Positions 10,253 to 55,296 of a DNA stretch of 64,000 nt are shown in pieces. The stretch is taken from positions 1 to 64,000 of the forward strand of contig CAILLA010000285.1 in the NCBI GenBank assembly GCA_903834925.1, read 5' to 3'. Under the pieces are notes generated by a model, which ran no database searches, was not told the origin of the DNA, and saw only the letters and a program-made list of their open reading frames with translations. Both the position numbers and the translations under genes were made by a program. The stretch is from an uncultured Schlesneria sp. GTDB lineage: Bacteria; Planctomycetota; Planctomycetia; Planctomycetales; Planctomycetaceae. Within the stretch, counting starts at the first letter, position 1; every line of letters begins with the position of its first letter.

Positions 10253-10322
10253 CTGCCGTAACAGGCGCTGATGGAAATAATTCGTTGGGGCTGGAAGCCT
10301 CCACTACAAAACCTGCAAACGC
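10253..10322. repeat. Dispersed palindromic repeat, family B (deleted copy)
   Basis: This segment shares CCTGCCGTA, GCTGATGGAAAT, AGCCTCCAC and ACAAAAC.TGCAAAC in the same order with 29443-29524. The first hairpin found in that copy is largely deleted here and the second is imperfect. It lies between two converging genes, the protease and the kinase, where it could also act in transcript ends. Confidence 0.7.
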
Positions 10323-10361
10323 GCGATACCTTTGTTTTTACCAGTTCTCTGTGATCATTTT

Positions 10362-15060: not shown

Positions 15061-15218
15061 ATTCTACGCCCAATTTAGATGATTCCGTTCACCAATTTTT
15101 CACAATTAAATTGCATATCATCGATTGTTATTGAGCATTTGCTCACGCATGATGCCGCGAATCTGCTGTCTTGCAACAAGATCCCTAAACATTGCCATCC
15201 TTCAGAAGGGCCATTCTG

Positions 15219-18200: not shown

Positions 18201-21095
18201 TACAGTAATAATACCTTGAGCGTCTTGCTGGGGAACGGGAACGGCACGTTTGGGGCACAACAGATCTTCGCCACCGGAGTTCTTCCATTTTCGGTCACGT
18301 CTGGTGATTTCAACGCAGACGGCAAACCCGATCTCGTTGTTGCAAATCAAGGTGGCAGCGTCAGTGTGTTGCTCGGCAACAGTAACGGCAACTTCACAGG
18401 TCAGTCTTACAACATTGCAGCGCTACCGTCTGTCATCGCCCCCACGGCCAGCAACATCAACAGCACTTCGGCCACATTGGGGGGAAATGTTTCCAGCGAC
18501 GGTGGCAGTCTTGTGATTGAACGAGGGGTGGTTTATTCCCTGACGAGCATCAATCCCAATCCGCATATTGGCGGTGCTGGTGTGACCAAGCTGACTTCAA
18601 GCGGTACGACAGGTCTTTTCAGCGCAGGGGCAAATGGCCTGACACCCTCTGTCGGATATTCGTTCGTCGCCTATGCAACGAATGCAATCGGTACGACGTA
18701 TACGACTCCCGTCACGACGTTCACTACGGTTGTTGCACTCGTTGTGCCGACAGTGACAACACCGACCGCCGCCAATTTCACCACGACCTCCGCGACTCTC
18801 GGGGCGAATGTCACCAGCGACGGTGGCACAACGATTATTGAACGAGGGGTCGTCTACGCGCCGTCCAGCAGTAATCCCAATCCGCAGATCGGCGACGTCG
18901 GTGTGACGAAGCTTTCGACAAGTGGGACGACGGGTATTTTTACAATCAACGCGAATAACCTTACACCAGGTGTCGTGTATTCCTATGCCGCTTATGCCAT
19001 CAATAGTGTCGGCACAACGTACACGTCGCCCGCCTCGACATTCGCGACGCTGACAGCGAGTCCCTCAATTGTCACGACTGTTTACGAAGGGACGGGGCCG
19101 AAGGTCGTCCAGGCAGGGGGCACACTGACCTCATCCATCACGGCATTGTCCTTCACCTTTTCCGAAAATATGAACGCCGTTCCCAACGGCGCGAACAGCG
19201 TCATCAATCCGTCAAGCTGGCGTCTGACCCGCTATGGAATCGATGTCACGAACCAGATCTCAGGAATCACGTTTGCCTTAGATCCGATCTCGCTTCAGTA
19301 TGTCGCGGTCGTCTCATTTTCGTTTCCGCTAATACAGGGGGGATATCAACTGGTCGCCAGACAAAATATCCAGGACCTCGCGGGCCGACCGCTGGATGGG
19401 GATGCGAACGGAATTCCTGGCGGAGATTTCCGCATTAACTTCTACGTCGCTGCCACAGTGAATGGCACTACGGATGTGGGACCATGGTTGTACCAGATTG
19501 AAGATACGGCACTGAGTGCGCCAGGGCCGCTGGCGACGCCGATCACCTCATCCCTACTCGTCTTCGATTATGACAGCAACAACTGGACGGGAGCGACAAT
19601 CCAAATCTCGAGCAACTATCTCAGTGATCAGGATGTGCTTGGATTTGTTAACACATCGAAAATCACTGGCTCGTGGGACGCCACTACCGCAACATTGACG
19701 CTGAGCGGCACTGATACGGTCTCGAACTACCGAGCGGCGCTGCAGAATGTGACCTATAACAACACGAGTGTCACGCCGAACACGTCTGTCCTGCGGACGG
19801 TTGACTTCCAGGCGACGGACGGCCTGCTGGCAAGCAACGTCATTTCACGCAATGTCGCGGTGTTGTCAACCAGCATCCCTGCAGTCCTGTCGGGAGTGGG
19901 TGGGACGGGAACGTACTTCGAAGGCGATCCGGCAATTACACTTTTCGCCAATCTGGTGGTCACCGATCCGTACACGGTCAACCTGGCGACTGCTGCCGTT
20001 TCGTTTACAGGCTGGCAGGGGGAAGATCGTCTCGAGTTCAATAACATTTTTGCCTTGCAGCACACCTTCTCTCAAGATCTGACGAAGCATACGGCGACAT
20101 TCACGATTACCGGTATCGAGACGGTCGATCACTATCAGACGCTACTTCGTTCGGTGATTTACTGGGATGTGAGTGCCAATCCCGTGACCACCCCGCGCGT
20201 TGCCGGCATCGCCGTTAGTGACGGACTTTCGACCAGTAACATCGTATCTCGTAACACGGCGATTGTGTCGATTAACAGTCCTCCGACGTTAGTGGAAATA
20301 GAGTCAGGTTCGCTCGCATATCGCGCGAATGATCCGGCGTTTCCCCCCCAGCCCATTTCGGCCACGCTGTTGGTTGGCGATCCTGACAGTAACAACCTGA
20401 CGAAGGCGACCGTGCAGATTACCTCTGGGTATCAAAGCGATGCCAATGGCAATGACGTGCTGTCGTTTACGAATCAGCTGGGAATTACTGGTTCATTCAA
20501 TGCTGCCACAGGGATGTTGACACTGACGGGCACAAGTTCCGTCAGCAATTATAGGACGGCACTGCGGTCTGTGACATTCAGTTCCTCGGGATCTGCTGTG
20601 AGTACAGCGGACCGAACGTTAACGATTGCCGCCACCGACGATGCTTCGCCCACACCTGCGACGAGCCTTTCGACAACGCGGACGGTGACTCTTTCGACGA
20701 GTAACTTGCCACCCGCGCTCGCTGGAATTCCAAACTCAAATCTGAGTTACGTCCGAGGTTCCGCTGCTGCGGCCGTTGTTCCTGGTGTTTTTGTTTACGA
20801 TCCCGACAGCGTGAATTTGACAGGTGCAACGATCCAAATCACGGGCAACTATCAAAGTGGCCTGGACGTCCTCGCGGCGACGACCGTCACGGGAATTACT
20901 CAAAGCTTTAATGCGGGAACTGGGATGTTGACCCTTTCGGGGATCTCATCCCTGGCCAACTACCAGACAGTGCTTCGGTCGGTCACTTTCCAAACTTCGC
21001 TCAGTGCGGGGACGTTGTCGCGCACACTTTCGTTCCTAGTCAACGATGGTTTAGCGACCAGTTCGAACGTGACACGTGGTATTACGATTAGTTGA
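15219..21095 (+). CDS. Giant secreted FG-GAP/VCBS repeat protein with cadherin-like C-terminal repeats
   Basis: This 1,958-residue protein begins with a basic segment and ALESRLLLT, a variant of the LEPR-type leader of planctomycete giant surface proteins. The order is: two Ig-like repeats (each with VDPTDF and GLNLxD); seven FG-GAP repeats; a third Ig-like repeat; seven more FG-GAP repeats; two repeats with ERGVVY resembling fibronectin type III; a segment with FTFSENMNA; and four repeats of the type 'D.DS.NLT.ATIQI' plus 'LTLSGT'. Each FG-GAP unit carries a DxNxDGxxD calcium-loop pattern, as in DLNGDGKPDLA. Seven units per set is what one beta-propeller needs. ATG 15219 follows AGAAGGG by eight bases, which decides against the TTG at 15192. 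A role in adhesion or cell-envelope structure is inferred. Confidence 0.9.
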   Translation: MLRHSWIRNLYRVLSEQSKTKPRRRRSRQSIEALESRLLLTTPTVTSLNLIGAATTNASATSWTATFSESVQGVDPTDFALVATGSVGSTLTQVTGTGSVYTVTVSGLTGNGTLGLNLIDNDSIKNLTNVPLGGVGSGNANFTGQVETLDHVFPFVQSINRTTPASATTSANTVSYSATFSEPMTGVDPTDFTLATTGTIATSLIQVTPVSSSVYTVTISGVTGNGTLGLNLVDDGSIHDLAGNPLTTQNAAPSFANQATFATGTYPSSVTTGDLNGDGMPDLAITNPRSSTVSVLLGNGNGTFKSQQTFTTGGGGPNSVKVADLNGDGKSDLAFACYGDCVSVLLGNGNGTFQSPKTFSTGSSPSSITVGDMNGDGRPDLAVANSGNSNIPSTTISVLLGNGDGTFQPQQALFSGKTPSSIVIGDINNDGKPDLAVTNLGNNTVSIMLGNGNGTFNFVLQSVTTASGPISVTLGDLNADGIPDLAVGNNGSSTVSVLLGNGNGTFQAQQTFATGNFARSLTMGDMNGDGKPDLAVAWGYGIATVSVFLGNLNGTFQPQTSFAAGSGTYSVTYSDFNMDGKTDLVVANYSSNTVSILLGNANGNFTDQVYTFDHVSPFVQSINRTTPVVATTNATSVTYTVTFSEAVTGVDLTDFAIAKMGTVGGTLTQVSGSGSVYTVSVNGITGVGSLGLNLVDDGSIHDLTGIGLATQNAAASFSNQATFGTGSAPNSVTLGDVNGDGKTDLAVANRGGNSVSVLLGNGNGTFASQQTFATGIGPVAVAMWDLNGDGKLDLAVANRDNNSVSVLLGNGNGTFGTQQAFTAGYGPRSITVGDLNGDGKPDLAIVNYGSDSVSVLLGNGNGTFTAQQTFGVGSSPRSIALGDLNGDGKPDLAVANYTSDTVSVLLGNGNGTFGTQQTFATGRFPFSITLGDLNADGRPDLAIANRLSNTVSVLLGNGNGTFAVQKTFATGASPFSVTLADFNGDGKPDLALANYSNNTLSVLLGNGNGTFGAQQIFATGVLPFSVTSGDFNADGKPDLVVANQGGSVSVLLGNSNGNFTGQSYNIAALPSVIAPTASNINSTSATLGGNVSSDGGSLVIERGVVYSLTSINPNPHIGGAGVTKLTSSGTTGLFSAGANGLTPSVGYSFVAYATNAIGTTYTTPVTTFTTVVALVVPTVTTPTAANFTTTSATLGANVTSDGGTTIIERGVVYAPSSSNPNPQIGDVGVTKLSTSGTTGIFTINANNLTPGVVYSYAAYAINSVGTTYTSPASTFATLTASPSIVTTVYEGTGPKVVQAGGTLTSSITALSFTFSENMNAVPNGANSVINPSSWRLTRYGIDVTNQISGITFALDPISLQYVAVVSFSFPLIQGGYQLVARQNIQDLAGRPLDGDANGIPGGDFRINFYVAATVNGTTDVGPWLYQIEDTALSAPGPLATPITSSLLVFDYDSNNWTGATIQISSNYLSDQDVLGFVNTSKITGSWDATTATLTLSGTDTVSNYRAALQNVTYNNTSVTPNTSVLRTVDFQATDGLLASNVISRNVAVLSTSIPAVLSGVGGTGTYFEGDPAITLFANLVVTDPYTVNLATAAVSFTGWQGEDRLEFNNIFALQHTFSQDLTKHTATFTITGIETVDHYQTLLRSVIYWDVSANPVTTPRVAGIAVSDGLSTSNIVSRNTAIVSINSPPTLVEIESGSLAYRANDPAFPPQPISATLLVGDPDSNNLTKATVQITSGYQSDANGNDVLSFTNQLGITGSFNAATGMLTLTGTSSVSNYRTALRSVTFSSSGSAVSTADRTLTIAATDDASPTPATSLSTTRTVTLSTSNLPPALAGIPNSNLSYVRGSAAAAVVPGVFVYDPDSVNLTGATIQITGNYQSGLDVLAATTVTGITQSFNAGTGMLTLSGISSLANYQTVLRSVTFQTSLSAGTLSRTLSFLVNDGLATSSNVTRGITIS
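15989..18380 (+). repeat. Tandem coding repeats (FG-GAP units) in two blocks of seven
   Basis: The FG-GAP units occupy about 15989-17040 and 17370-18380. In the second block the period is close to 147 bases (49 residues), each unit running VSVLLGNGNGTF, QQTFATG, SVTLGDLNGDGKPDLAVAN. Units in block two are more alike at DNA level than those in block one, suggesting recent duplication or gene conversion. The sequence between blocks repeats the Ig-like unit seen at 15666-15960. Confidence 0.85.
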
Positions 21096-24716: not shown

Positions 24717-24813
24717 GTGCCACTGGATGGCCGTCCTCGGCCACCCAGTGCTCTTCGAACGCTTTGAAAATGAGGAAGACACTGCGTCGGAGAAGACTCC
24801 GATGCAGTGGCAC
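24717..24813 (+). repeat. Repeat family A, full copy 1 (97 bp)
   Basis: The element begins GTGCCACTG and ends CAGTGGCAC. It contains two adjacent hairpins: CACTGG...CCAGTG on the left (loop near TCCT) and CACTGC...GCAGTG on the right, joined by a linker of under 30 bases. It differs from the next copy at only about six positions. It lies upstream of the DUF4419 gene, outside coding sequence. Confidence 0.9.
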
Positions 24814-24856
24814 ATGATCCGAAATTTGGATCTTCACAATACGTGCGAATATTCCG

Positions 24857-24953
24857 GTGCCACTGGATGGCCGTCTTCGGTCACCCAGTGCTCTTCGATT
24901 GCTTTGCAAATGAAGAAGACACTGCGTCGGAGAAGACTCCGATGCAGTGGCAC
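24857..24953 (+). repeat. Repeat family A, full copy 2 (97 bp)
   Basis: Same length and orientation as the copy 43 bases to its left, with the same termini and two hairpins. The right hairpin (CACTGCGTCGGAG through CAGTGGCAC) is identical in both copies, while the linker and left loop vary with partly compensating changes. The close tandem pair suggests local duplication or repeated insertion. Confidence 0.9.
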
Positions 24954-26259: not shown

Positions 26260-26352
26260 GTGCCACTGCTTGGCCGTCCTCGGTCAAGCAGTGCTCTTTG
26301 ACCCGGAGAAAGAGAAGACACTGCTTCTCCGAAGACTCCTAAGCAGTGGCAC
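26260..26352 (+). repeat. Repeat family A, full copy 3 (93 bp)
   Basis: GTGCCACTG to CAGTGGCAC with left hairpin CACTGCTTGGCCG...CGGTCAAGCAGTG and right hairpin CACTGCTTCTCC...AAGCAGTG. It sits in the gap between the SNF2 helicase and the SWIM gene, which are transcribed leftward, so it would be part of any shared transcript. Confidence 0.9.
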
Positions 26353-29191: not shown

Positions 29192-29249
29192 GAAGAACTT
29201 TCAGATGGTAATCTGCATCAAAGAAGGCTCCAGCGAGGATTCATGTCCT

Positions 29250-29285
29250 ACCAAAGTAGCCATCATCGCTCCGCGTGATGAGCAT
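29250..29285 (+). repeat. Dispersed repeat, family D (copy 1)
   Basis: These 36 bases, beginning ACCAAAGTAGCCATCATCG, recur exactly on the other strand at 39207-39242. Similarity continues for about ten more bases up to TCGAGAA. CATCA...TGATG inside can form a small hairpin. A diverged copy lies at 31311-31344. Confidence 0.85.
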
Positions 29286-29442
29286 CTCTCGAGAATGAGC
29301 CGATCGTTGCCGCAGCCTGGGTCCATTTTGGCAGACACTGAATTCAAAGTAAAAGCAGTGTACGGCGTCAATTGTACGTCATCCGTGAAAGGGTCGTCGC
29401 GCGGAGATGTCATCAGTTTTATAAATTGAAAATCGCGAGCGA

Positions 29443-29524
29443 CCTGCCGTATCAGCGGCTTCCAGCCGCTGATGGAAATTATGCGTGGAGGCTACCAGCC
29501 TCCACGACAAAACTTGCAAACTCG
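29443..29524. repeat. Dispersed palindromic repeat, family B (complete copy)
   Basis: Two perfect 10-base hairpins with three-base loops follow each other: ATCAGCGGCT-tcc-AGCCGCTGAT and CGTGGAGGCT-acc-AGCCTCCACG, then ACAAAACTTGCAAAC. The copy at 10253-10322 keeps the flanks but lost most of the first hairpin. A shorter related element with GCATGGGCTTCAGCCCGTGC and CCACAACAACTTG lies at 31379-31415. Confidence 0.75.
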
Positions 29525-39095: not shown

Positions 39096-39206
39096 ACTGC
39101 GGATCTGTTTCACCGAATATTCCCTGTTATCCAAGAGACTCGACTGATCTCAAATTGAATACTTTTTTGAAAACATGCGGATTGAAATATGACGGGTTCT
39201 CGAACA

Positions 39207-39242
39207 ATGCTCATCACGCGGAGCGATGATGGCTACTTTGGT
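39207..39242 (-). repeat. Dispersed repeat, family D (copy 2)
   Basis: Exact reverse-complement copy of the 36 bases at 29250-29285, lying between the SDR gene and the next leftward gene. The flanks differ, so it is a dispersed element and not part of a larger duplication. Confidence 0.85.
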
Positions 39243-39266
39243 CTGAGGCGAAGCCACTTTGAATCG

Positions 39267-41802: not shown

Positions 41803-44800
41803 TTATGGCGTTGCCGACTTGGGCGGCTCTTTCGTTTTCAAAGTGAATTCTGTCAAAACAAGTTCGCCGGTTGAAGCGGGAATCTCGGTTCGCAGTCCAA
41901 AATTGCCACCCTTAAGCGGAGCGTTACCGATTGGTCCCTGGTAGACCAGATCCCATTCATTCGAGTCTGATCTTGAATGGAGTATGAACGCGGTTTCTCC
42001 CTTGCGGACGAATCGTAACCTGCCCGAGGCTTCGGTTGTATCGCGCGAGCCGTGTTTCCATTCGAAATCGTCTTTGACACGAATTCGATGCGTGCCAAAC
42101 ATGAGCGTTTTGTCCGCCTGACGTCGGAGTCCTCCAACAATAATATTTGTATTTTCTGGATCGTTCCATCCGCCTCCAATATCAAATTGCGCTTCAATTC
42201 TGGGGGCTTGCCAGTCCTTCTGTTCGGTTTTCGAAACGAAGTCGCGATAACCGATTGTGACTTCAACATCGCCTTTCACATCCATGTTCCAGATGAAACC
42301 GCAAAAGCTTTCCGCGTCTTTACCATTTTCCCCTCGAACCAGCTTCAGTCCGTTCTCCACCGGTTCCATCCGATTCGTTTTTAAATCACCATAGATTTTG
42401 AAAGACGCGGGTCTGGCTCCCTGAAACTTCCAAGCCAGTTTTGTTGTCAGTTCATCCTCAGCAAAAACATATGGCTTCGAAATCTGGGTGGTCTGGCCTT
42501 TTTTGTTCGACCTGATGGTCAATCCGGTGAAGACGACACTGGCAGACGAGGTTGGCATTTCGGCTCGAAGACAGAAATTGCCCCCTTTCAGCGGCGCGGC
42601 ACTGACCGGCCCTGAGTTCAGCAAAATCCAATCATCGGATTCCGGCTTTGAGTACAAGTAGTAAGCCATATCACCCTTGCGGACAATCCGTATCTTTCCC
42701 GACTTTTCAGGTGCTTCTCTTTCCGAGTATTTCGATTCGAGTTGTTTCGAAACTCGAACGCTGTGACCCGTATAAACGTTTGACGTACCGTTTACACGTT
42801 GGCGGTGACCCATATGCAACATATTGATCGAATCTTCCCACCCGCCGCCGATATACAAATGCAATTCGACTCGCGGAATCTGCCAATCCGTTTGTTCGGT
42901 CTTCGACTGCAAGTCGCGATAACTGAGGGTGACATCGAAATCACCTTGAATATCCGAGTTCCAGGTATATCCCAACGGGATGGCTTCCGGGGTCGCTTTT
43001 TCTCCACGGACAAGTTTTAATCCCCCCTCCACCGGTTCCATCAGATTAGGTTTGACCACTCCCCACGGCTTAAGCAGGGCGGGATTGGCCCCCTGGAAAT
43101 TCCAGTGGAAATCGGTTTTGAGATCGGCCTCAGCAAGGTCAAAGTGCTTGGACCCCCTGTTCGAAAATTCTTGTTCTTTTAACGTTGGAAGCGACTTCGG
43201 CCACGCCCCCCGGTAAACCACGTTCTTAACGCGAACAGCGGTCTCTTCGACATAGTGGAACAATCCCAGTTGCCGTTGGTTGGTCAACTCGATTGGCCCT
43301 TCGTAGACGTCAGCATCGTTCAGTTTGAGTTGAACCGTATCACCCCTTGTCGTCATCTGAAGGTGGTTCCACTCATCCTTCTTTAATGGCAATGTGGCAG
43401 GTCCACGACGATGTTCTGGATTTGATTCGACGTTATCTGGCGCAAGGCCTGAGCGTTCCCATTGTGCATCGGTCAACCAATGAAGTTGGACGCCGTCCGG
43501 TTCCAGCAGAAATGCCATGCGACCGAGTGCGGGATGCACATGCGTTTCATTCGGGACATAGAAAAAGTCGTAATCGACGACCGAATCCTCAACAAGCGGT
43601 CGATGGTATCGCAACAGACTCGGACGTTTGCGGCCTGCCGTTTTAATAAACTGCTGACCCACGATTTCGTCATTGTTCTTGATCCAGGCACTATTGTTTT
43701 CGTTTTCATTCTGTTGCCGATTGTTCATCGGATCGTGATACAGGCTGGCCGTCCAGCCGACCAGATCGTTACGTGCCGACAGATTGAGTTGTTCAGGAAT
43801 TTCAGGCTGGCCTTTAATGCGAATCATCCGCGCACCGCCTGAAAGATTGCCCCAGGCCATCAGTCCGAGCCAGGGATCGGGTTGATCAGGCAGAGTTTGT
43901 TCATGCACCTTGCGATCCTCAATGTAGTACGTCGCCTTATTCGGTTCGACGACCAGTTTCATCAGGCACCACTCGCCGAATTCGATCTTGGGTTCAATTT
44001 TTGGGCTTTGCCAACTGCTGTAGAGATCACCCAGATCGACAACCTCGCGCGTCCATTGAGCACCGCACCAATGCCCGTGATACATCAATCGCGTTTCGCG
44101 CCAGCCGAAAGTGGCCAGCTCGGCCTCGACGGTAAACGATCCCCGTAACGGAGATTGAAAATAGAGATAGTCATGACTGTATCCCGCGACGTGCGTGATC
44201 TCGTTCTCGCGGAAGTGCCAGCGTGAAATCGGCCCGCGTGCATGGGCGTCGGCCCATTCGATTGACGCTGTGGTCCATTGCCCTTTCGGGGACGAACCAC
44301 CAGCAGGCGAAAGCTGGTTCGTGTCGATCAGCCTCTTGCACTGGTCGCGCAGTCCGGTTGTACGACCTTCCCACATTTCCCCTAAACCCCGCTTATGCTG
44401 ATGATCGACAATTTGCGTCAATAATGTCAGCGCCGAAGCTCGCAGCTCAGGATGTCGTGTTGCATCGCTTCCGACGAGGACTTCTGGCCAGCGTTTTACC
44501 ATGCGAGCGTTTTCAGGAATCGCTTTGCACAACGGCAACAGTTGATTGATTCCTTCATTCGATTTGGCGAAGTCTCCTTTTGCCGTATTGATCATGATCT
44601 GCATCGCTAACTTCGAGCGGGACGCGAGCGGTGTTTTGTCATCGGGTGCCTGCTCTACCAGAGTTGCCAGTTCGTCCAGTCGATTCAGTTTCTTCGCCAC
44701 ATCGACCAGATCCAGCGCCGGTGCAATCAGTTCGCCACCGATTTTCTGCCGACGAAATGATGGGACATCGTTGTCGCCATTGGAATCGATTCTTCCCGTC

Positions 44801-47800
44801 AGCCGATTTTTAGTCGGGATTCCATTGTCACTGGTAAAATCTCCGAACAGGCGATAGTTCGCATGGTCGTCGTTGGGCAGTACCCAGTGTTTGAGTGATT
44901 CATATTGAGCTTCGGGTGCCATCGCTCGGGTTTGAAGTAACAGATCTTCCAGGCCACTGGTATGAAATTTCTCATCGATGGTGCGACCGAAATTGCGTCG
45001 TTCCTGTGGAGTCCTTTCATGAGCAGGGGCGAGCAGATTCGAGGTGATTTCGGAGGAGAGCATCGCTGGCCAATCTCCCGTCAGGACAATATTTCGTATC
45101 TGGACGGCAGTCGCATTCTTGTCATGGTAGAAACCAAACTGACGGCTGTTTTCCGATTCGAGCTTCCGGACAGCGACCACCGATTCATTGAGCGAGAGCG
45201 TGACAACGCCGTCCTTCAACGACACCTCGACGGAATTCCAGTCGCGGTTTTTTAAGTTGACCTTTCCACGCTGGATTGATTGTTCGACCACAACGTTGTC
45301 GGCAGCAAGTCCGCCATAGGCATCCTCGGGTGAGCTGCCATCTGTCATCCAGTGCAGCTTGACTCCCTCGGGATCAAACAGGAACGACAGTCGATCAAAG
45401 GCCGGAGCGACATCGGTTACGGCTGATCCCGATTCGTACCAGAATTCGTACTTGATCCGTTCGCTATCCTGAATGGGACGGTCGTAATGCAGCCGACTTT
45501 GTTGAACGGTTGGTTTGCCAAGACCCGATAGAGGCTGATGTCGTCCATGAATAACGCCATCTTTCGCCCACCAGTCGAATTCAGGAGTTTCCGTCGGCTG
45601 ACCCGAGTCGTTTTCAAGGACTCGATTGGGATCGCGGTTCGGCTGGCGTTCGCCGTAGAACTCGGTCACCCAACCCAGCAGGTTGTCTCCTTTGACCAAT
45701 GCGATCTCGCGGGGAATGACCGGATTTCCAGTAATCTTCAGGTTTTGCAATGCCGTCATCCAGACCTTGTCGCAATGGACGAACAGCCAAGGTGAAGCGG
45801 ACGAGGGCTTCGGTTCTTCGTGGATGAAGTAACCGTTCACATAGTACCGGACTTTATCTGGTTTGATTTCGAGTCGAATCTGGTTGTAACGGTTTTGAAC
45901 TTCTGGAGGGTCTGGCTTGTGAACGGTATCAACGCGATTACCGACGGAGATGATCTGTGTGTCATTACCGAGGTTCAGTCCATGATAAATGACCCCTCCA
46001 TATCCGAGATCACATTCACCCCAAGGTCCAAGCCACGCGTCGCAAGTGACTTCAAATTCACCCCCAAGTGGATACTTGAGGTACAGGTGACTCGTATCCG
46101 GGCCAAAGAGGTGTGCAATCTGCCCGTCGTGTCCGATCCACCACATTGGCAAAGCACCGGCAGCCTCGGTCCGTGCGCTTACGACGGCACCAGCGGTCCA
46201 GTGATTGAGATCCGTATTCCAGGGCTCATGATTCATCCGTTCGGCCGCTTTCGGCCCAACCGTCGGCGCGTAGTATTCGCGTCGGCCCATGACCATCAAC
46301 ATATTCTCGTGGTGGCGTGATGCCTGATTCACAAATTGCAGGGCGAGTTCTCGGCCGACGGGACGAAGGTTCTTGTCGGCAATTGCCGCATGTGCCAGTA
46401 GCAAGTCATTAATTTGAGCCCAGGACTGGTTGTTACCGTCATCGTCTCCATCCTCGTCACCGGCACTACCACCAGCGACCTTCTTTCGTTCGTCGACATA
46501 TTTTCGAAGCGCCGGCAATTGCTCGGCACCATCGCCTCGGGCAATCTGGGTCATCAGCAATAGGAACTTTGCATGTTCCACATCCTGCTCGGCATGTGGA
46601 ATTAATAGATCACGAAGTTCATCCAGTTTTTTTGTCTCGGCAGCAGCAGCAACAAGTAAGCCTGCCGTGCTGGCCAATTCCGAAACGCGAGGACCTCGCG
46701 GAACGTCACCTCGTAAGGCATCAAAGCTTGTCGGAGCACTGTCGCCTGCAATCAGATTCCCGATGACACGAATCGATTTTCGTTCTGGCGTGGGCAGCGA
46801 CCAGGCCTTCAAGAGTTCATATCGTTCTGCCGCCGGGATCGTCGCGAGTCCCGAAAGGATTGTGGTCGTCGCGCGACTGGGGCCTTCTTGATTATAGTTG
46901 TTGACGATTGGCAAGTCGGCATATCGACCGAGGCACTCCAGAGATTCGGTTCGAAGCCCCGCGCGCGCGTATTCAGCGGCGATTTTCATCATCTCGATTC
47001 GTCGACGGTATTGACCGTAATTGCCTCCGTATCGAGCGTAAACCGGAGTGAGATAATTCAGATATTCTTCGAGATGCTTCTTTCCACCTTCGACATTCTT
47101 ATTTTGGAAGTGCAACCGAGCGAGGGCAAATCGAAACGATCGGACCGGCTCTTCCTGGACGTTACCTCGTCCTTGTTGCCCGTTCTGTGTGAAATGATCA
47201 ACAGCCCGTTCGAGCAACACCATCGCCGCCGGAGGCAACTCAGTAAGACTCAATGCTGGGATCGCCACGTGACAGGCAAGTTCGCTGGAATTCTGTAGCG
47301 AATCCTGCTGCAGACGCTTACTGAGCATTTCAATCTGCTCGGTTGCTAATGCGTTGTCTCGCGTCGCAATTGCGAGCTGCGCGAGCAAGACCCGGGCGGA
47401 AAGTTCACCTAGCGGCTGCTTCAATTTCGGTTCGAGCAGTTGTTTGACCTCGTCGATTTTATTCGCCTGCAAGGCGGCTTTGACCAGCAGCGAGCCGATG
47501 CTTTGCGGCGGTTGATTCGGGTTCAGGTTTAGCGGTTTTGGGTACAGAAAGACTTCGAGCGGACGTCGTTCCGGAAGGACGGCAGACTTCAGCAGGTTGT
47601 AGACGACGTCATCGGAAAACCCTTTTTGTCTCCATAATCGTTCGATGCCCGTTAGTCGTTCTTCAATTTTCAAAGTCAGTTGCGACTGTTCATTCTGATT
47701 ATTGGGATTCCGTGATGCCGCAAATGGCTGATTTGGATCGATCGCTTGAATGGCCTCGATCGGTGGACCCGACTGAAGTGCCAATGACATCGCCTTGACC

Positions 47801-50800
47801 GACAGATCGTTCAGGCCGTTCTCGGCTGCCAGTTTCGCGATCTGTGTTGCCTGTTCAAACTGGGCAAGCGTGATCACGTTTCCTTTGGTACCCGCTGCGG
47901 CGGCAGGAGGGGTAGCCGATCTAATTGGGACCGAAAGGGTTGCCTGTCCCACAAGTGCGGGTGCGAGCATCATCTCCCACCGGGAAAGCCCGGTTTTGAT
48001 GTGCCACTGCTTCGGAGTCCTCGGAGAAGCAGTGGCTTTCCATCGAATTTCGTTTTGACGTTCGGCACTGCTTGACGGAAGACCGGCAAGCAGTGGCACG
48101 ATGCGCGATGGGTTACCAACCGAACTTGTCTTCGCGTCTCCCTCTTTCTTCGTTTTTTCCACCGGTTTTGGAATGACGACTTCCAACATCTCGGTCCAGC
48201 GTCGTTCAGCCACTTCCTTGTCACCGGCTTGAAGTGCGAGTTGTCCCCATTCTCTCAGGATCGCCAGCGCGTATCCGTGATCGGTCTGTCGCCGAGCGGC
48301 TTCCAGTGCCCGTTCGCCGAGTTTAGTACCCGATTCTCGAAGTGAGTCGTGCTTGAGGCATTCCCGGCCAACCAGCCACAGCGCCATCTGTTGCTTGGCG
48401 GCATCGCGCTGTTTTGTTGTAAAGCCTCCCTTTTCTGGCTGAGGATCAAGCGGTCTTTCGTCGACCAGTTCAACCAGTTGCTTCACGACCGCCGACTGAT
48501 TTTCGGTATCCTTTAATGTTTCGGCCATTTGAGCAACCAGGATCAGGACAGCAAAATGCCCAGGATTGTTGGCTCGAATCTCGCTCAATGCCGTCTTCGT
48601 CTTCGCGACCATTTCCGGGTTGGATGCGATTCCAGAGACAAGGTTCGAGAGAGCGCTCGACATCGTAGTCTTGTCGAGATCTCGTGATTCCAGCAACAGC
48701 AACAGGTCAATGTGTGATGACTTGTCTTTCTTCGAATCGTCCCCTGTTAAGAGTTCCGGAAGGAGTTCTGGCTTGATCTCCTTGAGTGCCGTTTGGAAAC
48801 CTGTCTCCAGCTGCTTTTTCATCCGAGTGATTTGTTGAGTTCCATTCTTCCCGCCACCGAAAACTCGTTCGGCCGAGACAAAGTCTTCGGAACGAGCCAG
48901 TTGTTCCTGATAAACACGAAGCGCATCGATCGGAAATCCAAGCGATTTCATCTCATTTCCGAGCGAGGTCGAATTATTAATGCGCTGGTACGCTTCGTAA
49001 TCCTCGTTGCCACGATTACGCGTTCCCTTGATCTTGCTTGCTTCCAGCATTACTCGCCGTGCATCGCTCTTTCGTCCACGTTGTTTATAGAGCATCACCA
49101 GTGGCTTGCCGGGCGTATATTCAAACTGGTTTTGCGTCATCGCGTCGGGGTCTTTGCTCGCCGCTTCGAAATACTGAATCGCCAGGTCGATACATTTTTC
49201 ATGAGGCATCAACTCCTGACCGATCTCCCAACGCGTGTATTGCCCCTGTTGCATCCCCTTGAAGGTTGGTAACAACTTTTCCAAGACGACTTTGGCTTCA
49301 TCAACCTTGCCGCGACGCAAGTCGATCAAAGCCAGGAGCGCCGTTCCCCCGTCCCATTTCTTGACCTTCTTCTGCGTTGCTTCAATCTCTTTCGTTAATT
49401 CGTCAAACTTCTTATTCGTCGCAGCAATGGTCAGGAAGCGGTTCATCAGTGTGGTGATCTTCCCCTCACCATTCCAATTTTGAATTTGTCCGAAACCTGG
49501 CCAGCCTGCGTTTTGCAGGATTGATGTTTCGGTCGGGATGATCCCTTGGCGGGCATAGTCATAGATTTCCGGCATCTGCCAGAAAATGTCATTGTTCAAA
49601 TTGGATAACAGCTGCTGCCTTTGATCAGGCAAGTCTTTCCAGGCACGCTTAAACAACGCAACGGCCTGAGTTTTCGACTTTTCCTGATACGACAAATTGC
49701 TGATCATGTTCGTCAGTTCCCAGGGGTTCTGTCGGAACATTTTGAAATCCATTTCGTCAATGACGCCGGCCAGATCGTTCAGTTTGTCTGCTTGCTGGAA
49801 CGAGTTAATAATCTGGTAGAAATTGTTTCGCGCCAGCTTCGGATCTTTCTTGAGCGCCACTTTGAAATGTTCAACTGCCTCTTTGTGCTTTCCCTGATTC
49901 ATTAACTGTTGTCCGAGGCTGAACCGAAACTGCGGATCGTCCTGTTTCGTTTCTGCGATCTTCGCGGTCATCTCTTCGACTTTTTTCGTCTCGCCATTCG
50001 CTGAATAGTACTCGATCAACGTTTCGATCAGTCGCTGAGATTTGGGCGAGGATTTCAGTTGGCCTTCGACCTTCTTAATCATTTCGGGGAGTTTGCCCGA
50101 CCGCTTGAGCACCGTCAGTGCCTGCTGTCGTAATCCAGAATCGCCGTTCTGGTTGTTACCACGCCGCCGCGCCACGGCATTCATCGTTGTGGATCCACCA
50201 CTCGATCGTCGCAGCAATTGATGGGCGATCTGAGTCGCGACTTCGTTCTTTCCCTGCGACTGGTACTGCTGCATCAAGTTTGAAAGAACATCGGTCTTGT
50301 TCCCCGCCTGACGTCCCGCGCGAGACAGAACAGCCTCTGCCTGATCATGCATTCCCAGCTGATGCATCTGTTGGGCGAGCTGGATTTGCAAATTCGAATC
50401 CAATCGCAACCCGAACAATCGGTCGGCGGCGGCACGTGCTCGATCGATATTGCCGCTGTTTACGGCCATCCGCAGCGCCGTAATCTCGCGCTTTTGCATC
50501 GCCTGCTGATCGGTTGCTGTCAGTGAGTCAACAATTTCCAGGGCTTGCTCGTGTTCGCCCCGTTGTTCATAGAGCTTGGCCAGTTCAAACTTCATATCGA
50601 CGTTATCATTGAGCGCCTCGGTGGCCGGCGCAAGGACAGCCAATGCCTCGTCTTTCTCATCCATCCACCAGTGAAGGTAACCCAGACCAAACTGCCAGAA
50701 AATCCTCTGAGTTTCGGACGTATTGGGATCACTCAGTGTTTTCTGAAAATGGTCAACCAGGTCGCGCGACGAATCGGCCTCTTTGTAGATCGCGAATGCC

Positions 50801-53800
50801 TGATACAGCATCTGAATCGTCGATTGATTGTAAATCTCGTTGGCGGTGGGGAAGGCAAGGTTGACGTACTGCTGGTTGTTTCCTTGCCAGACGTAAACGT
50901 AGCCCTGTTGCTGGTACTGGAACTGTTGTTGTTGATTCCGTTTTTTCGTAGCGGCCGGGACAGCTTTTTGTTTCTCGTACCGTGCTACAGCCGTTTTCAG
51001 ATACCGATCCCATAGCCCGAGGACATCGCCGATCGCCTTTTTCTGAGCTCGTTTCGCCATCAGTTGGGCAAGGATTTGTGACTGGTACTCGGGCGTTGAA
51101 ACGTACTGGGCGTAATTGAATGCGCCGTTCGGGTTTTGAGCCTGGTTAGCCGCCCCGTCGTCCTTAATTTCTGCAAGTCGGTCAAGCAGTGTGATTGCGG
51201 TGGCATAGTCATTTTTCTGCACAATTTCGGGGAGCAACGTGGCGATCTGGACAGGTTCTTTTGCTGCGCTGATCATGTCCTGGAACATTTTGTCCGCTTC
51301 GTCTTTCCGTCCCGCTCGCTTTAATTCGGCGGCAACGATCGGAAGAAATGACTGACCAAAAGTCATCATCGTTGTGCTGTGGTCGATCGACTTGTAGCAC
51401 TCCATGACGTGATTCATTTCTTCGGGATCTAGCGCTGTCAGTTTGGGCATGCGCTGTTGTGCTTCTTCGTCGTCTTCGTCCGTTTCGACGGCTTCTTCAG
51501 TCATTTCGATGGGGTCACCGTCTTCGTCAACCTGGCCGGGAACGAAGCCACGGTTCGACAGCGATGCCAGGTACATTGTTTTTGTCATGACGTCGGTATC
51601 AGCTCGTAACGAGAGTTTTTTCAGAATCTCGTAGGTGGCCTTGGAGTTGTTGGTCAGCGATGCGAAGTAATACCAATCGCGTAACCCCCGCAGGTCTTCT
51701 GCCTTTTCGCCAAGCCCCCGATGTTCGTTCAGGAATTCCTCTTCCTTCCCTTCGTTTCGAGCCAGCAGATTCAACCAGCCGACGCAGGCGATTCGCGCCG
51801 TTCCGTAATCATGCGGAGTCCAGAACGGCTGTTGTCCACCACCATAGTAATTCTGGTTATCCAATCCGACTGCCTGACGAATCTGCCACGTGCTCTGGAC
51901 GCGCATCATCAAGGGGTCCATTTCTTGAATCTGAGCGACCGGACTACGTGTCCGTCCTTGAGACTTCTTCAACTGGTTTTTGGCCGACAACGTCAATTCA
52001 TCGTCGTTCAGTTTCAAAGCCAGAATTGCCTCAAATCGCGACTTCGCTTCGGCCGCTTTGTCCTTCGATTTGGCGAGAGCGACCCCTTCCCGATAGATCA
52101 ATTCCCAGTTCTTGGGCTGATCGCGAGTCAGCTTTTCCACAACGGTCAATGCTTGTGCGTAATTCTCTTGATTGAGCATCGAATCTAGCGACTTCAACAC
52201 CGTTTCCGGGTCTTTCTCTTCGATCGTGATCCGGCTCATCAGGGCGGTTGCTTCGTCGTTCTCACCCAGTTTCATCAGCAGTTGAGCCAGTCGCATCGTC
52301 GCTTCTTTTCCCGGTGCCGACTTCATCAGTTGCTGTTGAAATTTTACAGCGGCATCCAGGTCACCATCGGATTCACACAGCTTGATCAGTTGAGTCAAAA
52401 GCTGAACATCGCGGGTCTCTTCCGTCAGCAATTTCTCCAGTTCCTGTCGCGCGTTCCCGTCGTCGCCAGCAGACTGGTAGGCCTGGGCGAGGCAGATCGT
52501 CATTTCACGTTGTTGGTTCGGTTCCCGACGTTGACGCTCGAGCCGTTCGAGCAACCGGTCAAACTGGTTTGTTTGAAGATACAGTTCGGTCAGTTTGGGA
52601 ACGACGCCGAGTCGATCATCGAGATTGGCCGCCTTGTCGAACGCTCGCCAATAGAGTTCGATTGCTTCACTCGTACGAAACTGTTCGCTGAGTGCCGACG
52701 CGAGTAATAACAGACCTTTGGGTTCCGTCGGGTTCACTCGAACCGAACGCCGCAAGGCACCGAGTCCTTCTTCCGCTTCACCTAACTGAAAACAAAGTTG
52801 GCTGAAGAATTCATACGATTCAGGATTTCCGGGGGCCGCAGCGATCAGGTCTCGTCCCGCTTGAATCGCCTTATCGCGGCGACCCAGCTTTTGTTCCAGC
52901 GTTGCGACCTGTTTCAGATATTCCGTCCGGTATCGTCGGTCGATGGCGGCGAGTTTGGTATTGATGTCGACAGCCGCAAGTAGGTTGTTCTGAGCTTCAT
53001 AAATCCGGGCGGAAGCCATCAGGATCGGAACGGATTGCGGCGCGAGTGTACTGGCCTTGGTGACCGCCTGAGCCGCTTCTTTCAGTTGCCGTTCGGCTTC
53101 GTAAGCACGCCCCAGCCAGAACCAGTGGTCGGCGTCTTTAGAATCTTTTTCTTTTTCACGTTCGGCAATTCGTTCTTTCAGCTTGTTCACCGCTTGAAGC
53201 TCACGCAGTTCCCGCATCAACCAGGCTTCACGTTCTTCATCGTTCGCCGCCAGCTTTTTCACGATCGACAATTGAGTGAGCGCCTGATCGTGCTGATCCG
53301 CCTGAGCCAGCAAATCGGCCTGTTTGACCTGCAAGGCAAAATCTTTCGGATCGAGTTTGCAGGCTTCGGCGTTCGTCTCGACCGCTTCGGACAGGTATCC
53401 AAAGCTGGCCAGAACTTCGGCCAGACGAGCGACATTCGGAGCCGTCTTCAGTTTGCCGTCGGCGATCGCTCGCCATGTCGTCATCGCCTCGTCTTTGCGC
53501 TTCAGCGTATGAAAATACTCGCCAAGATATTCGCGATACTGAGCCTGCTCGGGGGCGAGCGAGATTGCCTTCTGGTACAGCTCAAGCGCCTCGTCCGTCA
53601 TTTCCGCCTGACGAAACAATTCGCCGACTTGAGAGGCGATCAGAGGATCTTTTGGTTTTGCCGTGGTCAATCGGCGCCAGACGGCCGCTGCATCCTTTTT
53701 GCGAGTCGCCTCGTCACGCGCGGTATCTTTCAGAATCACGCGGCCCCAATCCCGCAGTGTATCAGGGTTGTTCGGTTCATGTTTGTCGAGCTGTTCATAT

Positions 53801-54957
53801 TGTGCGATGGCCTCAGCGTACTTTTGTTCGTACATCAATTGGCCGATCAAGGCGTTGCGTAATTCCTTTTTCTTAGGCGCAAGCTTCAGCCCCTTTTCCA
53901 GCCACGCTTGAGCCTCAGGTCCGCGACCCATTCCTGCCAGCAATCGTGACAAGCGAGAAACGGCTTCAAGATCTTCCGCGTTCTTTTTGATCCAGGTTTC
54001 GTAGTACATAATCAGACCCGACTGATCATCGGTTCGCAGATAGACCGCCTCGATCCGGCGGCGGACTTCGCGATAAAGCCAATTGTCGGGATTGAGTTGT
54101 CCGAGCAGTTTCTCGAATTCGGCGATCGCCTCGTCTGATTTTCCAAGCCGCACTTTGATTTCGGCTGCTTCCATCTGGAACAACGACTGGCGGTATTTGT
54201 CCTTTGTGGTCTTTGCCAGTCCCTGATATCGCGGCAAGGCGGCAGCAAACTCGTTTTCTTCGAGTAGCGTGGTCGCGATCTGTTCCTGAACTCGAGCATC
54301 ATTGGGAAATTGCTTCTCTAAACGGTTCCAGACTTCCAGTGCCTTATCGGTTTTTTGAGCTCGTTGATACACTCGGCCAAGCGCCTGGAAGATGTCGAGC
54401 AAATCCGCCTGAGCCGGTTTACGTTGAATCGATCGTTCGAGTGCTTCTGCCGCCTTGTCTGGTTGGCCGATGAGCACCAGCGACTGACCCAGATAATACG
54501 ACGCGAGATAATTGTCTTTGACGAGTTGTTCGGCATGTTCAAACGCATCAACAGCGACGGCATCTTGTCCCCGCAACGATTCCAGCAGCCCGACGATCAT
54601 CCATGCGGTACCCGCTTCAGCCCCTTTGGCGGTTTGGGTTTTGTCGCGGTAGTTTTTGACCAGTCCATCCAGCGACCCTCGCTCGACGTGAAAGCCGTAA
54701 ACTTTATCGAGAGCCGTCCCGCGTCGAGGATTCTTTTCGAGGACGGTGACAAATCGGTCCGCAACCGATTTTTCCTTCGCCTCTTCCGGATCAACTTCCT
54801 GAGCCTTCAGGTGGCAGGCCATCAAGGCTCCCGCAAGAAAGCACAGCGTTAAACATCGGAATCCAATTCTCAAACCATAGCCCGACGCGCAATCGAGGGA
54901 TCTTGTCCGATTGACGGATCGTCTCTGAATCAACCAATCGAAGCGAAGTGAACTCAT
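41803..54957 (-). CDS. Giant secreted TPR protein with concanavalin-like C-terminal domains (4,384 aa)
   Basis: I start at ATG 54957 because it is preceded by a perfect AGGAGG; the 95 codons upstream look non-coding. A signal-like helix (about 33-52) precedes a TPR solenoid filling most of the first 2,700 residues, with units such as NYLASYYLGQSLVLIGQPDK. Acidic (TDEDDEEAQQ, GDEDGDDDGN) and Gln-rich stretches interrupt it. Two beta-rich blocks at about 2930-3270 and 3580-3880 (YLKYPLGGEFEVTCDAWLG; YFQSPLRGSFTVEAELATF) and two end repeats at about 3950 and 4170 (WNFQGA, LVRGE) resemble planctomycete DUF1583/DUF1581 regions with lectin-like folds. It likely acts outside the cytoplasm. Residues about 2286-2319 come from a repeat insertion. 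Confidence 0.9.
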   Translation of the reverse strand: MSSLRFDWLIQRRSVNRTRSLDCASGYGLRIGFRCLTLCFLAGALMACHLKAQEVDPEEAKEKSVADRFVTVLEKNPRRGTALDKVYGFHVERGSLDGLVKNYRDKTQTAKGAEAGTAWMIVGLLESLRGQDAVAVDAFEHAEQLVKDNYLASYYLGQSLVLIGQPDKAAEALERSIQRKPAQADLLDIFQALGRVYQRAQKTDKALEVWNRLEKQFPNDARVQEQIATTLLEENEFAAALPRYQGLAKTTKDKYRQSLFQMEAAEIKVRLGKSDEAIAEFEKLLGQLNPDNWLYREVRRRIEAVYLRTDDQSGLIMYYETWIKKNAEDLEAVSRLSRLLAGMGRGPEAQAWLEKGLKLAPKKKELRNALIGQLMYEQKYAEAIAQYEQLDKHEPNNPDTLRDWGRVILKDTARDEATRKKDAAAVWRRLTTAKPKDPLIASQVGELFRQAEMTDEALELYQKAISLAPEQAQYREYLGEYFHTLKRKDEAMTTWRAIADGKLKTAPNVARLAEVLASFGYLSEAVETNAEACKLDPKDFALQVKQADLLAQADQHDQALTQLSIVKKLAANDEEREAWLMRELRELQAVNKLKERIAEREKEKDSKDADHWFWLGRAYEAERQLKEAAQAVTKASTLAPQSVPILMASARIYEAQNNLLAAVDINTKLAAIDRRYRTEYLKQVATLEQKLGRRDKAIQAGRDLIAAAPGNPESYEFFSQLCFQLGEAEEGLGALRRSVRVNPTEPKGLLLLASALSEQFRTSEAIELYWRAFDKAANLDDRLGVVPKLTELYLQTNQFDRLLERLERQRREPNQQREMTICLAQAYQSAGDDGNARQELEKLLTEETRDVQLLTQLIKLCESDGDLDAAVKFQQQLMKSAPGKEATMRLAQLLMKLGENDEATALMSRITIEEKDPETVLKSLDSMLNQENYAQALTVVEKLTRDQPKNWELIYREGVALAKSKDKAAEAKSRFEAILALKLNDDELTLSAKNQLKKSQGRTRSPVAQIQEMDPLMMRVQSTWQIRQAVGLDNQNYYGGGQQPFWTPHDYGTARIACVGWLNLLARNEGKEEEFLNEHRGLGEKAEDLRGLRDWYYFASLTNNSKATYEILKKLSLRADTDVMTKTMYLASLSNRGFVPGQVDEDGDPIEMTEEAVETDEDDEEAQQRMPKLTALDPEEMNHVMECYKSIDHSTTMMTFGQSFLPIVAAELKRAGRKDEADKMFQDMISAAKEPVQIATLLPEIVQKNDYATAITLLDRLAEIKDDGAANQAQNPNGAFNYAQYVSTPEYQSQILAQLMAKRAQKKAIGDVLGLWDRYLKTAVARYEKQKAVPAATKKRNQQQQFQYQQQGYVYVWQGNNQQYVNLAFPTANEIYNQSTIQMLYQAFAIYKEADSSRDLVDHFQKTLSDPNTSETQRIFWQFGLGYLHWWMDEKDEALAVLAPATEALNDNVDMKFELAKLYEQRGEHEQALEIVDSLTATDQQAMQKREITALRMAVNSGNIDRARAAADRLFGLRLDSNLQIQLAQQMHQLGMHDQAEAVLSRAGRQAGNKTDVLSNLMQQYQSQGKNEVATQIAHQLLRRSSGGSTTMNAVARRRGNNQNGDSGLRQQALTVLKRSGKLPEMIKKVEGQLKSSPKSQRLIETLIEYYSANGETKKVEEMTAKIAETKQDDPQFRFSLGQQLMNQGKHKEAVEHFKVALKKDPKLARNNFYQIINSFQQADKLNDLAGVIDEMDFKMFRQNPWELTNMISNLSYQEKSKTQAVALFKRAWKDLPDQRQQLLSNLNNDIFWQMPEIYDYARQGIIPTETSILQNAGWPGFGQIQNWNGEGKITTLMNRFLTIAATNKKFDELTKEIEATQKKVKKWDGGTALLALIDLRRGKVDEAKVVLEKLLPTFKGMQQGQYTRWEIGQELMPHEKCIDLAIQYFEAASKDPDAMTQNQFEYTPGKPLVMLYKQRGRKSDARRVMLEASKIKGTRNRGNEDYEAYQRINNSTSLGNEMKSLGFPIDALRVYQEQLARSEDFVSAERVFGGGKNGTQQITRMKKQLETGFQTALKEIKPELLPELLTGDDSKKDKSSHIDLLLLLESRDLDKTTMSSALSNLVSGIASNPEMVAKTKTALSEIRANNPGHFAVLILVAQMAETLKDTENQSAVVKQLVELVDERPLDPQPEKGGFTTKQRDAAKQQMALWLVGRECLKHDSLRESGTKLGERALEAARRQTDHGYALAILREWGQLALQAGDKEVAERRWTEMLEVVIPKPVEKTKKEGDAKTSSVGNPSRIVPLLAGLPSSSAERQNEIRWKATASPRTPKQWHIKTGLSRWEMMLAPALVGQATLSVPIRSATPPAAAAGTKGNVITLAQFEQATQIAKLAAENGLNDLSVKAMSLALQSGPPIEAIQAIDPNQPFAASRNPNNQNEQSQLTLKIEERLTGIERLWRQKGFSDDVVYNLLKSAVLPERRPLEVFLYPKPLNLNPNQPPQSIGSLLVKAALQANKIDEVKQLLEPKLKQPLGELSARVLLAQLAIATRDNALATEQIEMLSKRLQQDSLQNSSELACHVAIPALSLTELPPAAMVLLERAVDHFTQNGQQGRGNVQEEPVRSFRFALARLHFQNKNVEGGKKHLEEYLNYLTPVYARYGGNYGQYRRRIEMMKIAAEYARAGLRTESLECLGRYADLPIVNNYNQEGPSRATTTILSGLATIPAAERYELLKAWSLPTPERKSIRVIGNLIAGDSAPTSFDALRGDVPRGPRVSELASTAGLLVAAAAETKKLDELRDLLIPHAEQDVEHAKFLLLMTQIARGDGAEQLPALRKYVDERKKVAGGSAGDEDGDDDGNNQSWAQINDLLLAHAAIADKNLRPVGRELALQFVNQASRHHENMLMVMGRREYYAPTVGPKAAERMNHEPWNTDLNHWTAGAVVSARTEAAGALPMWWIGHDGQIAHLFGPDTSHLYLKYPLGGEFEVTCDAWLGPWGECDLGYGGVIYHGLNLGNDTQIISVGNRVDTVHKPDPPEVQNRYNQIRLEIKPDKVRYYVNGYFIHEEPKPSSASPWLFVHCDKVWMTALQNLKITGNPVIPREIALVKGDNLLGWVTEFYGERQPNRDPNRVLENDSGQPTETPEFDWWAKDGVIHGRHQPLSGLGKPTVQQSRLHYDRPIQDSERIKYEFWYESGSAVTDVAPAFDRLSFLFDPEGVKLHWMTDGSSPEDAYGGLAADNVVVEQSIQRGKVNLKNRDWNSVEVSLKDGVVTLSLNESVVAVRKLESENSRQFGFYHDKNATAVQIRNIVLTGDWPAMLSSEITSNLLAPAHERTPQERRNFGRTIDEKFHTSGLEDLLLQTRAMAPEAQYESLKHWVLPNDDHANYRLFGDFTSDNGIPTKNRLTGRIDSNGDNDVPSFRRQKIGGELIAPALDLVDVAKKLNRLDELATLVEQAPDDKTPLASRSKLAMQIMINTAKGDFAKSNEGINQLLPLCKAIPENARMVKRWPEVLVGSDATRHPELRASALTLLTQIVDHQHKRGLGEMWEGRTTGLRDQCKRLIDTNQLSPAGGSSPKGQWTTASIEWADAHARGPISRWHFRENEITHVAGYSHDYLYFQSPLRGSFTVEAELATFGWRETRLMYHGHWCGAQWTREVVDLGDLYSSWQSPKIEPKIEFGEWCLMKLVVEPNKATYYIEDRKVHEQTLPDQPDPWLGLMAWGNLSGGARMIRIKGQPEIPEQLNLSARNDLVGWTASLYHDPMNNRQQNENENNSAWIKNNDEIVGQQFIKTAGRKRPSLLRYHRPLVEDSVVDYDFFYVPNETHVHPALGRMAFLLEPDGVQLHWLTDAQWERSGLAPDNVESNPEHRRGPATLPLKKDEWNHLQMTTRGDTVQLKLNDADVYEGPIELTNQRQLGLFHYVEETAVRVKNVVYRGAWPKSLPTLKEQEFSNRGSKHFDLAEADLKTDFHWNFQGANPALLKPWGVVKPNLMEPVEGGLKLVRGEKATPEAIPLGYTWNSDIQGDFDVTLSYRDLQSKTEQTDWQIPRVELHLYIGGGWEDSINMLHMGHRQRVNGTSNVYTGHSVRVSKQLESKYSEREAPEKSGKIRIVRKGDMAYYLYSKPESDDWILLNSGPVSAAPLKGGNFCLRAEMPTSSASVVFTGLTIRSNKKGQTTQISKPYVFAEDELTTKLAWKFQGARPASFKIYGDLKTNRMEPVENGLKLVRGENGKDAESFCGFIWNMDVKGDVEVTIGYRDFVSKTEQKDWQAPRIEAQFDIGGGWNDPENTNIIVGGLRRQADKTLMFGTHRIRVKDDFEWKHGSRDTTEASGRLRFVRKGETAFILHSRSDSNEWDLVYQGPIGNAPLKGGNFGLRTEIPASTGELVLTEFTLKTKEPPKSATP
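48001..48099 (-). repeat. Repeat family A, full copy 4 (99 bp), inside the giant gene
   Basis: It has the standard ends and two hairpins (CACTGCTTGCCGG... and ...CGAAGCAGTG on the minus strand), in the same orientation as the host gene. Its length is a multiple of three and the frame has no stop: it is read as 33 residues beginning VPLLAGLPSSSAERQ and ending PKQWH, joining normal coding sequence on both sides. Confidence 0.92.
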
Positions 54958-55296
54958 CACAAAAGCCTCCTGATCGTGAATTTTGTCGCCTTTTCCAGCG
55001 ACCTGGCATGTTGCCAGACGAGTGTCGCAGGGGAAGCGGGAACGAACGCGTGAAATGTCTGTCGGAAAATACTCAGGCATTTTGTCTTGCCCGGCTTGCG
55101 TTGGGAAGCCATCAACGACAGAATTTTGCATCGCGTCGATCAGGGGGCTCCTCCTATCGCACGGTTCAACGTTGCTTGGACACCCTTGTCCATCAATTTT
55201 GTCTGGTAACCGAATCACTTTCAGGACAACCGCCGACCCCATAATTCAGCGACTCGGGTGTTGCTGACTTGTCGGTAAAGTAAGGAATCCGCCCTC
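54958..55296. other. Divergent intergenic region, giant gene and second MoxR gene
   Basis: This 339-base gap should contain both promoters. The ribosome sites AGGAGG (minus strand, before 54957) and AAGGAATCC (plus strand, before 55297) are clear, but no strong promoter consensus or hairpin was found. Confidence 0.5.

Follow-up and report, generated by a model that had tools for sequence, protein, structure and literature searches.

The Rickettsia palindromic elements (RPE, Ogata et al.) are dispersed palindromes located in frame in protein genes, to which they add tens of residues, according to the retrieved portions of two reports (PMC10969869, PMC3733652). Intragenic REPs are known from several phyla, and dimers of GTAG- or CGTC-tagged REPs were found in frame in ORFs, where they encode 20-30 residues (PMC3733652, 2013). 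The retrieved part of this last report also proposes flexible linkers as REP-tolerant sites, describes two Xanthomonas species whose recB genes carry REPs at nearly the same position and names O. terrae (Verrucomicrobia) as the organism with the largest number of GTAG cases. REPINs, as presented in the available excerpt of PMC3116915, are inverted pairs of REPs that occur in high copy number, are mainly extragenic (14 of 1,067 16-mers overlap genes) and may be linked to Y1 transposases.

The repeat analysed here belongs to an uncultured Schlesneria, where it occupies a linker in a giant gene. Judged by the excerpted descriptions, it resembles the GTAG/CGTC REPs as in-frame dimers in ORFs, in the approximate number of encoded residues (20-30 there) and in the tolerance of flexible linkers, and it resembles REPINs as an inverted REP pair of high copy number that is mainly extragenic. 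It differs from the former in that inspection of the aligned copies revealed no unpaired GTAG or CGTC at the hairpin end, which is preceded by GTGC. As far as the excerpt goes, the recB case concerns two species of one genus, whereas the giant-gene linker contains unrelated families across genera. In-frame REPs are already known, and it is the recurrence of several unrelated families in one linker that sets this case apart and lifts it above a known kind. Among the papers listed by literature searches on planctomycete or Schlesneria palindromic repeats and on protein-coding palindromes, no report of such a recurrent colonisation was found.

A REPIN-like repeat in frame in a giant gene

The window, i.e. 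the whole stretch of 64,000 nucleotides that was analysed, contains on its minus strand an ORF of 4479 codons, the product of which matches TPR families as well as DUF1581, DUF1583_N and DUF1583. The 4,384 residues given to this gene in the initial annotation fit a start at the sequence MSSLRFDW. In the following, "own" designates the Schlesneria genome that contains the window, G-numbers designate other genomes and L-numbers sampled loci. The features of interest are listed below, with their basis in brackets.

41803..55242, minus strand: giant TPR / DUF1581 / DUF1583 gene, likely start at 54957, 4384 residues (ORF listing, profile matches)
47881..48156, minus strand: variable linker hosting the insert, 92 codons in the own genome (alignment of homologues, AlphaFold2)
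48001..48099, minus strand: REPIN-like repeat, 99 bp, in frame, 33 residues (sequence, BLAST, fold)
48066..48099, minus strand: first hairpin (REP arm) in gene orientation (inverted-repeat listing and fold)
48001..48034, minus strand: second, inverted hairpin (REP arm) in gene orientation (inverted-repeat listing and fold)
47914..47973, minus strand: hydrophobic stretch MMLAPALVGQATLSVPIRSA, possibly a relict signal peptide of a once-separate downstream gene (by eye)
26260..26352, plus strand: another full REPIN copy, intergenic (REPIN model scan)
24717..24953, plus strand: two more full REPIN copies in tandem, intergenic (REPIN model scan)

The repeat is exactly 99 bp long, has the ends GTGCCACTG and CAGTGGCAC, and consists of two inverted hairpins that fold into one long hairpin (z = -4.6). 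It encodes the 33 residues VPLLAGLPSSSAERQNEIRWKATASPRTPKQWH, corresponding to residues 2382-2414 of the long ORF, and four of its six frames are open. The initial annotation had described it as a stop-free 99-bp repeat adding 33 residues in frame to the giant TPR gene, which sequence and ORF confirm. The accompanying remark that palindromes rarely stay translatable was overstated, as between 35 and 111 of 163 REPIN copies are open, depending on the frame considered, the copy length is divisible by three in 68 of the 163, and both conditions hold in 18% of the copy-frame combinations. Chance or a sequencing error as the source of the repeat was ruled out by the copies in the genome, the fold z and the homologues. 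No Rfam family matched the window at gathering scores.

A 286-residue segment around the linker was modelled with AlphaFold2, using a shallow alignment of 4 sequences as input. The mean pLDDT was 55.3, with values below 50 for the linker (residues 78-172), values of 81-90 in the first seven ten-residue blocks upstream of it, which form helices, and block values from 29 to 77 downstream, many of them low; two other stretches were also below 50. The low pLDDT points to disorder of the linker rather than proving it. The outcome of the disorder prediction proposed in the initial annotation is suggestive, given the shallow alignment and the low values in many blocks of the downstream flank.

Other repeats are present in the window as well. 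Two copies, 82% alike, of another dispersed repeat around GGCTGGAAGCCTCCAC are located at 10262-10323 and 29463-29524, a 59-nt inverted pair at 29237-29295 and 39197-39255 is 85% complementary over a separation of 9.9 kb, and a 137-nt repeat occurs nine times in an ORF of 1967 codons (15192-21095), with a spacing of 147 bp for six of the copies.

Copy number, genomic placement and class of the repeat

In the own genome, BLAST listed at least 48 matches to the repeat, the window copy itself counted, and the closest other match was 90% over 105 bp (E 9.7e-34). A covariance model built from 14 copies gave at least 148-150 matches per genome in all four species, a count in which a near-palindrome may figure on both strands. 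Placement was assessed in sampled DNA, which amounted to 0.76 Mb in the own genome (the window and 40 stretches) and, with 20 stretches each, to 0.26 Mb in G109 and 0.31 Mb in G034; genes were called by a simple codon-usage script. The stretches were mostly chosen around known copies, and the giant gene was deliberately included in the own and G034 samples and is absent from the G109 sample. With this sampling, the full copies numbered 163 (91 in own, 41 in G109 and 31 in G034), of which 161 were intergenic; the two in genes were both in the giant-gene linker, one in the own genome and one in G034. The intergenic share was thus 131 of 132 for own and G109 together and 30 of 31 for G034, each with one copy in a gene. 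A second scan with the 12 of the 14 seed rows that are found verbatim in the genome yielded 164 full copies, 162 of them intergenic, and the same two in-gene places (own and G109, 133 copies, 132 intergenic and one in a gene; G034, 31 copies, 30 and one, respectively). Among 17 half copies, 14 were intergenic, one overlapped a gene edge and two were in orthologous PSCyt genes. In these genes the PSCyt1 and PSCyt2 parts are separated by a lone REP hairpin that keeps the frame (own L156:2185-2222 and its G109 orthologue L187:1100-1136).

Two inverted imperfect palindromes folding into one long hairpin, together with many dispersed copies that are almost all extragenic, are the characteristics of REPINs. 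Unlike REPINs, some Schlesneria copies are part of a larger element with the ends GGCAACGC and GCGTTGCC. Both ends were found around 4 of 132 REPINs (L163, L169, L149 and L159, all own), which form the core of an element of 188-194 bp; the upstream end is near 12 of the 132 and the downstream end near 10, within 130 bp, for about 0.8 expected. The RPEs are described as being frequently inside genes, whereas such a large in-gene, in-frame share is absent here, with two of 163 full copies, as far as a comparison of descriptions shows. The parallel with Rickettsia drawn in the initial annotation thus holds for the principle of in-frame palindromic insertion, but not for the placement of the copies.

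Matches to Y1_Tnp are present in all 15 genomes of the genus, including 10 in the own genome. Four of these 10 proteins were scanned; the best reached a score of 61.8, compared to the NCBIfam RAYT cut-off of 80, and two reached the IS200/IS605 cut-off. As none of the four was at the RAYT cut-off, mobilisation by a RAYT was dropped as a claim. A REPIN was found within the retrieved flanks of one of the 10 Y1_Tnp loci (L041, at a contig end). The G034 sites orthologous to two of the own intergenic copies are without the element (202 versus 18 bp and 215 versus 25 bp), which may reflect either gain or loss.

The insertion among Schlesneria relatives

The orthologous linker could be read in 10 of the 15 genomes of the genus, the named members of which are uncultured Schlesneria bins; the homologous-locus search gave no match in G096, G130 and G075 and weak matches in G149 and G152. 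Own, G118, G034 and G109 group together with 100/100 support in a tree built from the protein sequence around the linker. The 99-bp insertion is at the identical site with the same junctions in own and G118, and G109 has these junctions with the repeat as an in-frame tandem pair, 126 bp or 42 codons apart. The linker of G034 contains a 93-bp copy of a different REPIN subfamily, with orientation and frame unchanged, inside a 173-bp composite that is bounded by GGCAACGCC and GGCGTTGCC and parts of whose flanks are also dispersed; 37 dispersed pieces of the G034 genome match this linker, the linker itself and opposite-strand pieces being counted. As the tree places G034 within the carriers of the other subfamily (support 95/92), its copy may have replaced an earlier one instead of being newly inserted.

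The REPIN model did not match the linkers of G140, G135, G125, G145 and G151, and no REPIN was seen by eye in that of G150, which is split over two contigs. The alignment of homologues proposed in the initial annotation thus contains a gap, the linker measuring 64 residues in G125 and G151, which are without the insert, compared to 92 in own. Homologues with the same 33 residues and without the nucleotide repeat, which that annotation had regarded as evidence against an insertion, were not seen, as G118 and G109 carry the nucleotide repeat too. Because the nearest REPIN-free linkers (G135 and G140) are diverged and offer no clean empty site, the boundaries of the insert and the added length are approximate.

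We consider it quite probable that the repeat is a selfish REPIN-like insertion, tolerated by a flexible linker in which palindromic repeats are recurrently accepted. In a common ancestor of several Schlesneria species, a selfish two-hairpin repeat would have entered the fast-evolving flexible linker that joins both halves of the giant protein, and would presumably be translated, judging from the open frame, as 33 unconstrained residues. The gene would have stayed intact because a repeat of 99 bp is divisible by three and because its frame was open; insertions breaking the frame would have been lost.

Alternatively, the linker might be the remnant intergenic region of two fused genes, in which the repeat was already present, so that it never inserted into coding DNA. 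Some traces of such a fusion were seen by eye. In G037, G098 and G137 the downstream half is in an ORF without the upstream half and starts near a signal-peptide-like stretch, and the fused Schlesneria linkers end with a hydrophobic stretch that looks like a signal peptide in G100 and G133. The linker may therefore well descend from a former gene junction, as far as can be read from these sequences. However, the gene is already fused in the REPIN-free Schlesneria (G125, G151, G145, G140 and G135) as well as in more distant genera, and the carriers branch from within these fused lineages, which indicates that at least the Schlesneria insertion postdates the fusion. In addition, the linker parts flanking the insert are mostly third-position biased, albeit with small counts. 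A repeat that predates the fusion is thus very unlikely.

An assembly or binning artefact was also considered, as the three named Schlesneria carriers are metagenome-assembled genomes and as repeats break assemblies, the contigs of G150 and G163 ending in or near the linker. However, in-frame repeats are present at the site in four separate genomes, own included, and an artefact preserving the frame in each of them is unlikely. The single-contig genome G042 also has an in-frame repeat there, and we regard an artefact as extremely improbable.

The same linker in other genera

A family search of 170 genomes matched 46, from which 36 linkers were extracted (29 of orthologue type and 7 paralogues). 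Linkers were admitted only if both flanks were in one frame, so that split or frameshifted genes fall outside the count. The 36 linkers, of 19-234 residues and with boundaries slightly different from those giving 92 codons in own, contain no stop in 2704 codons, compared to 76 and 77 stops in the other two frames.

Dispersal was tested in six chosen linkers, those of own, G034, G008, G036, G042 and G169, the five non-own ones having been picked for their length, unusual sequence or richness in hairpins. Dispersed sequence was present in all five, which is a lower bound obtained from chosen cases, and in four other genera (G008, G036, G042 and G169) the dispersed repeats in frame in this linker are unrelated. 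Counted as above, the matching pieces in the respective genomes numbered 72 for G008, the linker of which contains a C-rich palindrome pair, 51 for G036, 13 for G042 and 76 for G169, with a 315-bp and a 78-bp repeat family. The G169 linker has 234 residues, versus 107 in its congener G133, and only a single one of the six frames of its 315-bp repeat, the frame in use, is open. The suggestion of the initial annotation that the orientation with an open frame may be selected is better supported by this repeat. It appears that unrelated palindromic repeats would have settled in the same tolerant linker in other genera, with the frame open in each case seen. The 132-residue linker of G135 is not hairpin-rich (z 0.85 relative to mononucleotide shuffles), and the fold z was -3.27 for the G034 paralogue and -3.17 for G018.

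The repeats of these genera were also located. The G042 repeat occupies 6 distinct places, one of them in a gene, namely the linker, and among 19 sampled places of the G169 315-bp repeat 17 are intergenic, one is the linker and one is near an ORF start at a contig end. Counting the linker, 8 of 27 places are in genes for G008, 7 of 32 for G036 and 5 of 15 for the 78-bp repeat of G169. As these three are fairly often in other genes, their presence in the shared linker is less remarkable. The notion that in-gene insertion is unique to the giant-gene linker was dropped for the same reason, the REP between PSCyt1 and PSCyt2 being a further case. Under uniform insertion over coding DNA, the rough expectation for the giant-gene linker is 0.001-0.036 per lineage, given for orientation only, since it assumes uniform tolerance and a simple gene caller and uses samples chosen around known copies.

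Another site with in-frame palindromes was noticed in a PSD1 (DUF1553) loop near profile position 64, where three G008 genes (L249, L252 and L257) have C-rich palindromes. The same loop contains the palindrome GGCTGGAAGCC in own L156 and is shorter in the G109 orthologue L187. It is possible that this loop is a second hotspot.

Selection on the insert

Between own and G118, the differences by codon position are 4, 3 and 5 within the insert and 26, 18 and 112 in the upstream flank. Even numbers in the insert next to a third-position-biased flank suggest that the inserted peptide is unconstrained whereas the surrounding gene is constrained. The hairpin arms behave differently from the middle of the repeat, which changes at about the third-position rate of the flanks: arm third positions changed in 0 of 22, 1 of 22 and 1 of 22 cases, compared to 29-36% in the flanks (P 9.5e-5, 7.6e-4 and 7.6e-4, from pairs that are not independent). 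The in-gene copies fold at -47.4, -47.9, -46.0 and -39.0, about as well as 22 sampled same-type copies, the window copy included (mean -49.6, sd 5.8). We read the conserved arms as a sign that the hairpin is probably maintained at the nucleic-acid level, through either selection or conversion between copies.

Arm conservation of this kind is not what a purely neutral, unmaintained insert would show, and it speaks against the tolerated-insert reading. It might reflect selection for an RNA- or DNA-level function of the hairpin in the host gene, e.g. a delay of the ribosomes between two domains or protection of the transcript, in favour of which are the almost unchanged third positions of the arms and the preserved folding. 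However, it may as well be a property of the repeat itself, e.g. conversion between copies. Intergenic orthologous pairs inspected by eye included one with a similar pattern and a paired arm change and another with arm decay, so that arm conservation is not clearly specific to the host gene; moreover, many homologues are without a strongly folding linker. We therefore hold a function in the host gene to be quite unlikely. Somewhat less unlikely, albeit still doubtful, is that the linker is a conserved landing site for successive palindromic families, the hairpins of which would be kept at the nucleotide level for a role between the parts of the message encoding the two protein halves.

Significance

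With a tolerated insertion as the preferred reading, tolerance of the flexible linker would be the cause of the recurrence, and the site appears to be one where repeats land safely time and again, not an isolated curiosity. The giant gene thereby offers a natural series, in which one orthologous linker either lacks in-frame insertions or contains them from different repeat families. This series permits tests of how mobile hairpins turn into protein sequence and of whether flexible linkers serve as safe harbours for bacterial selfish DNA. It is also a warning that some of the residues of giant planctomycete proteins are derived from repeats.
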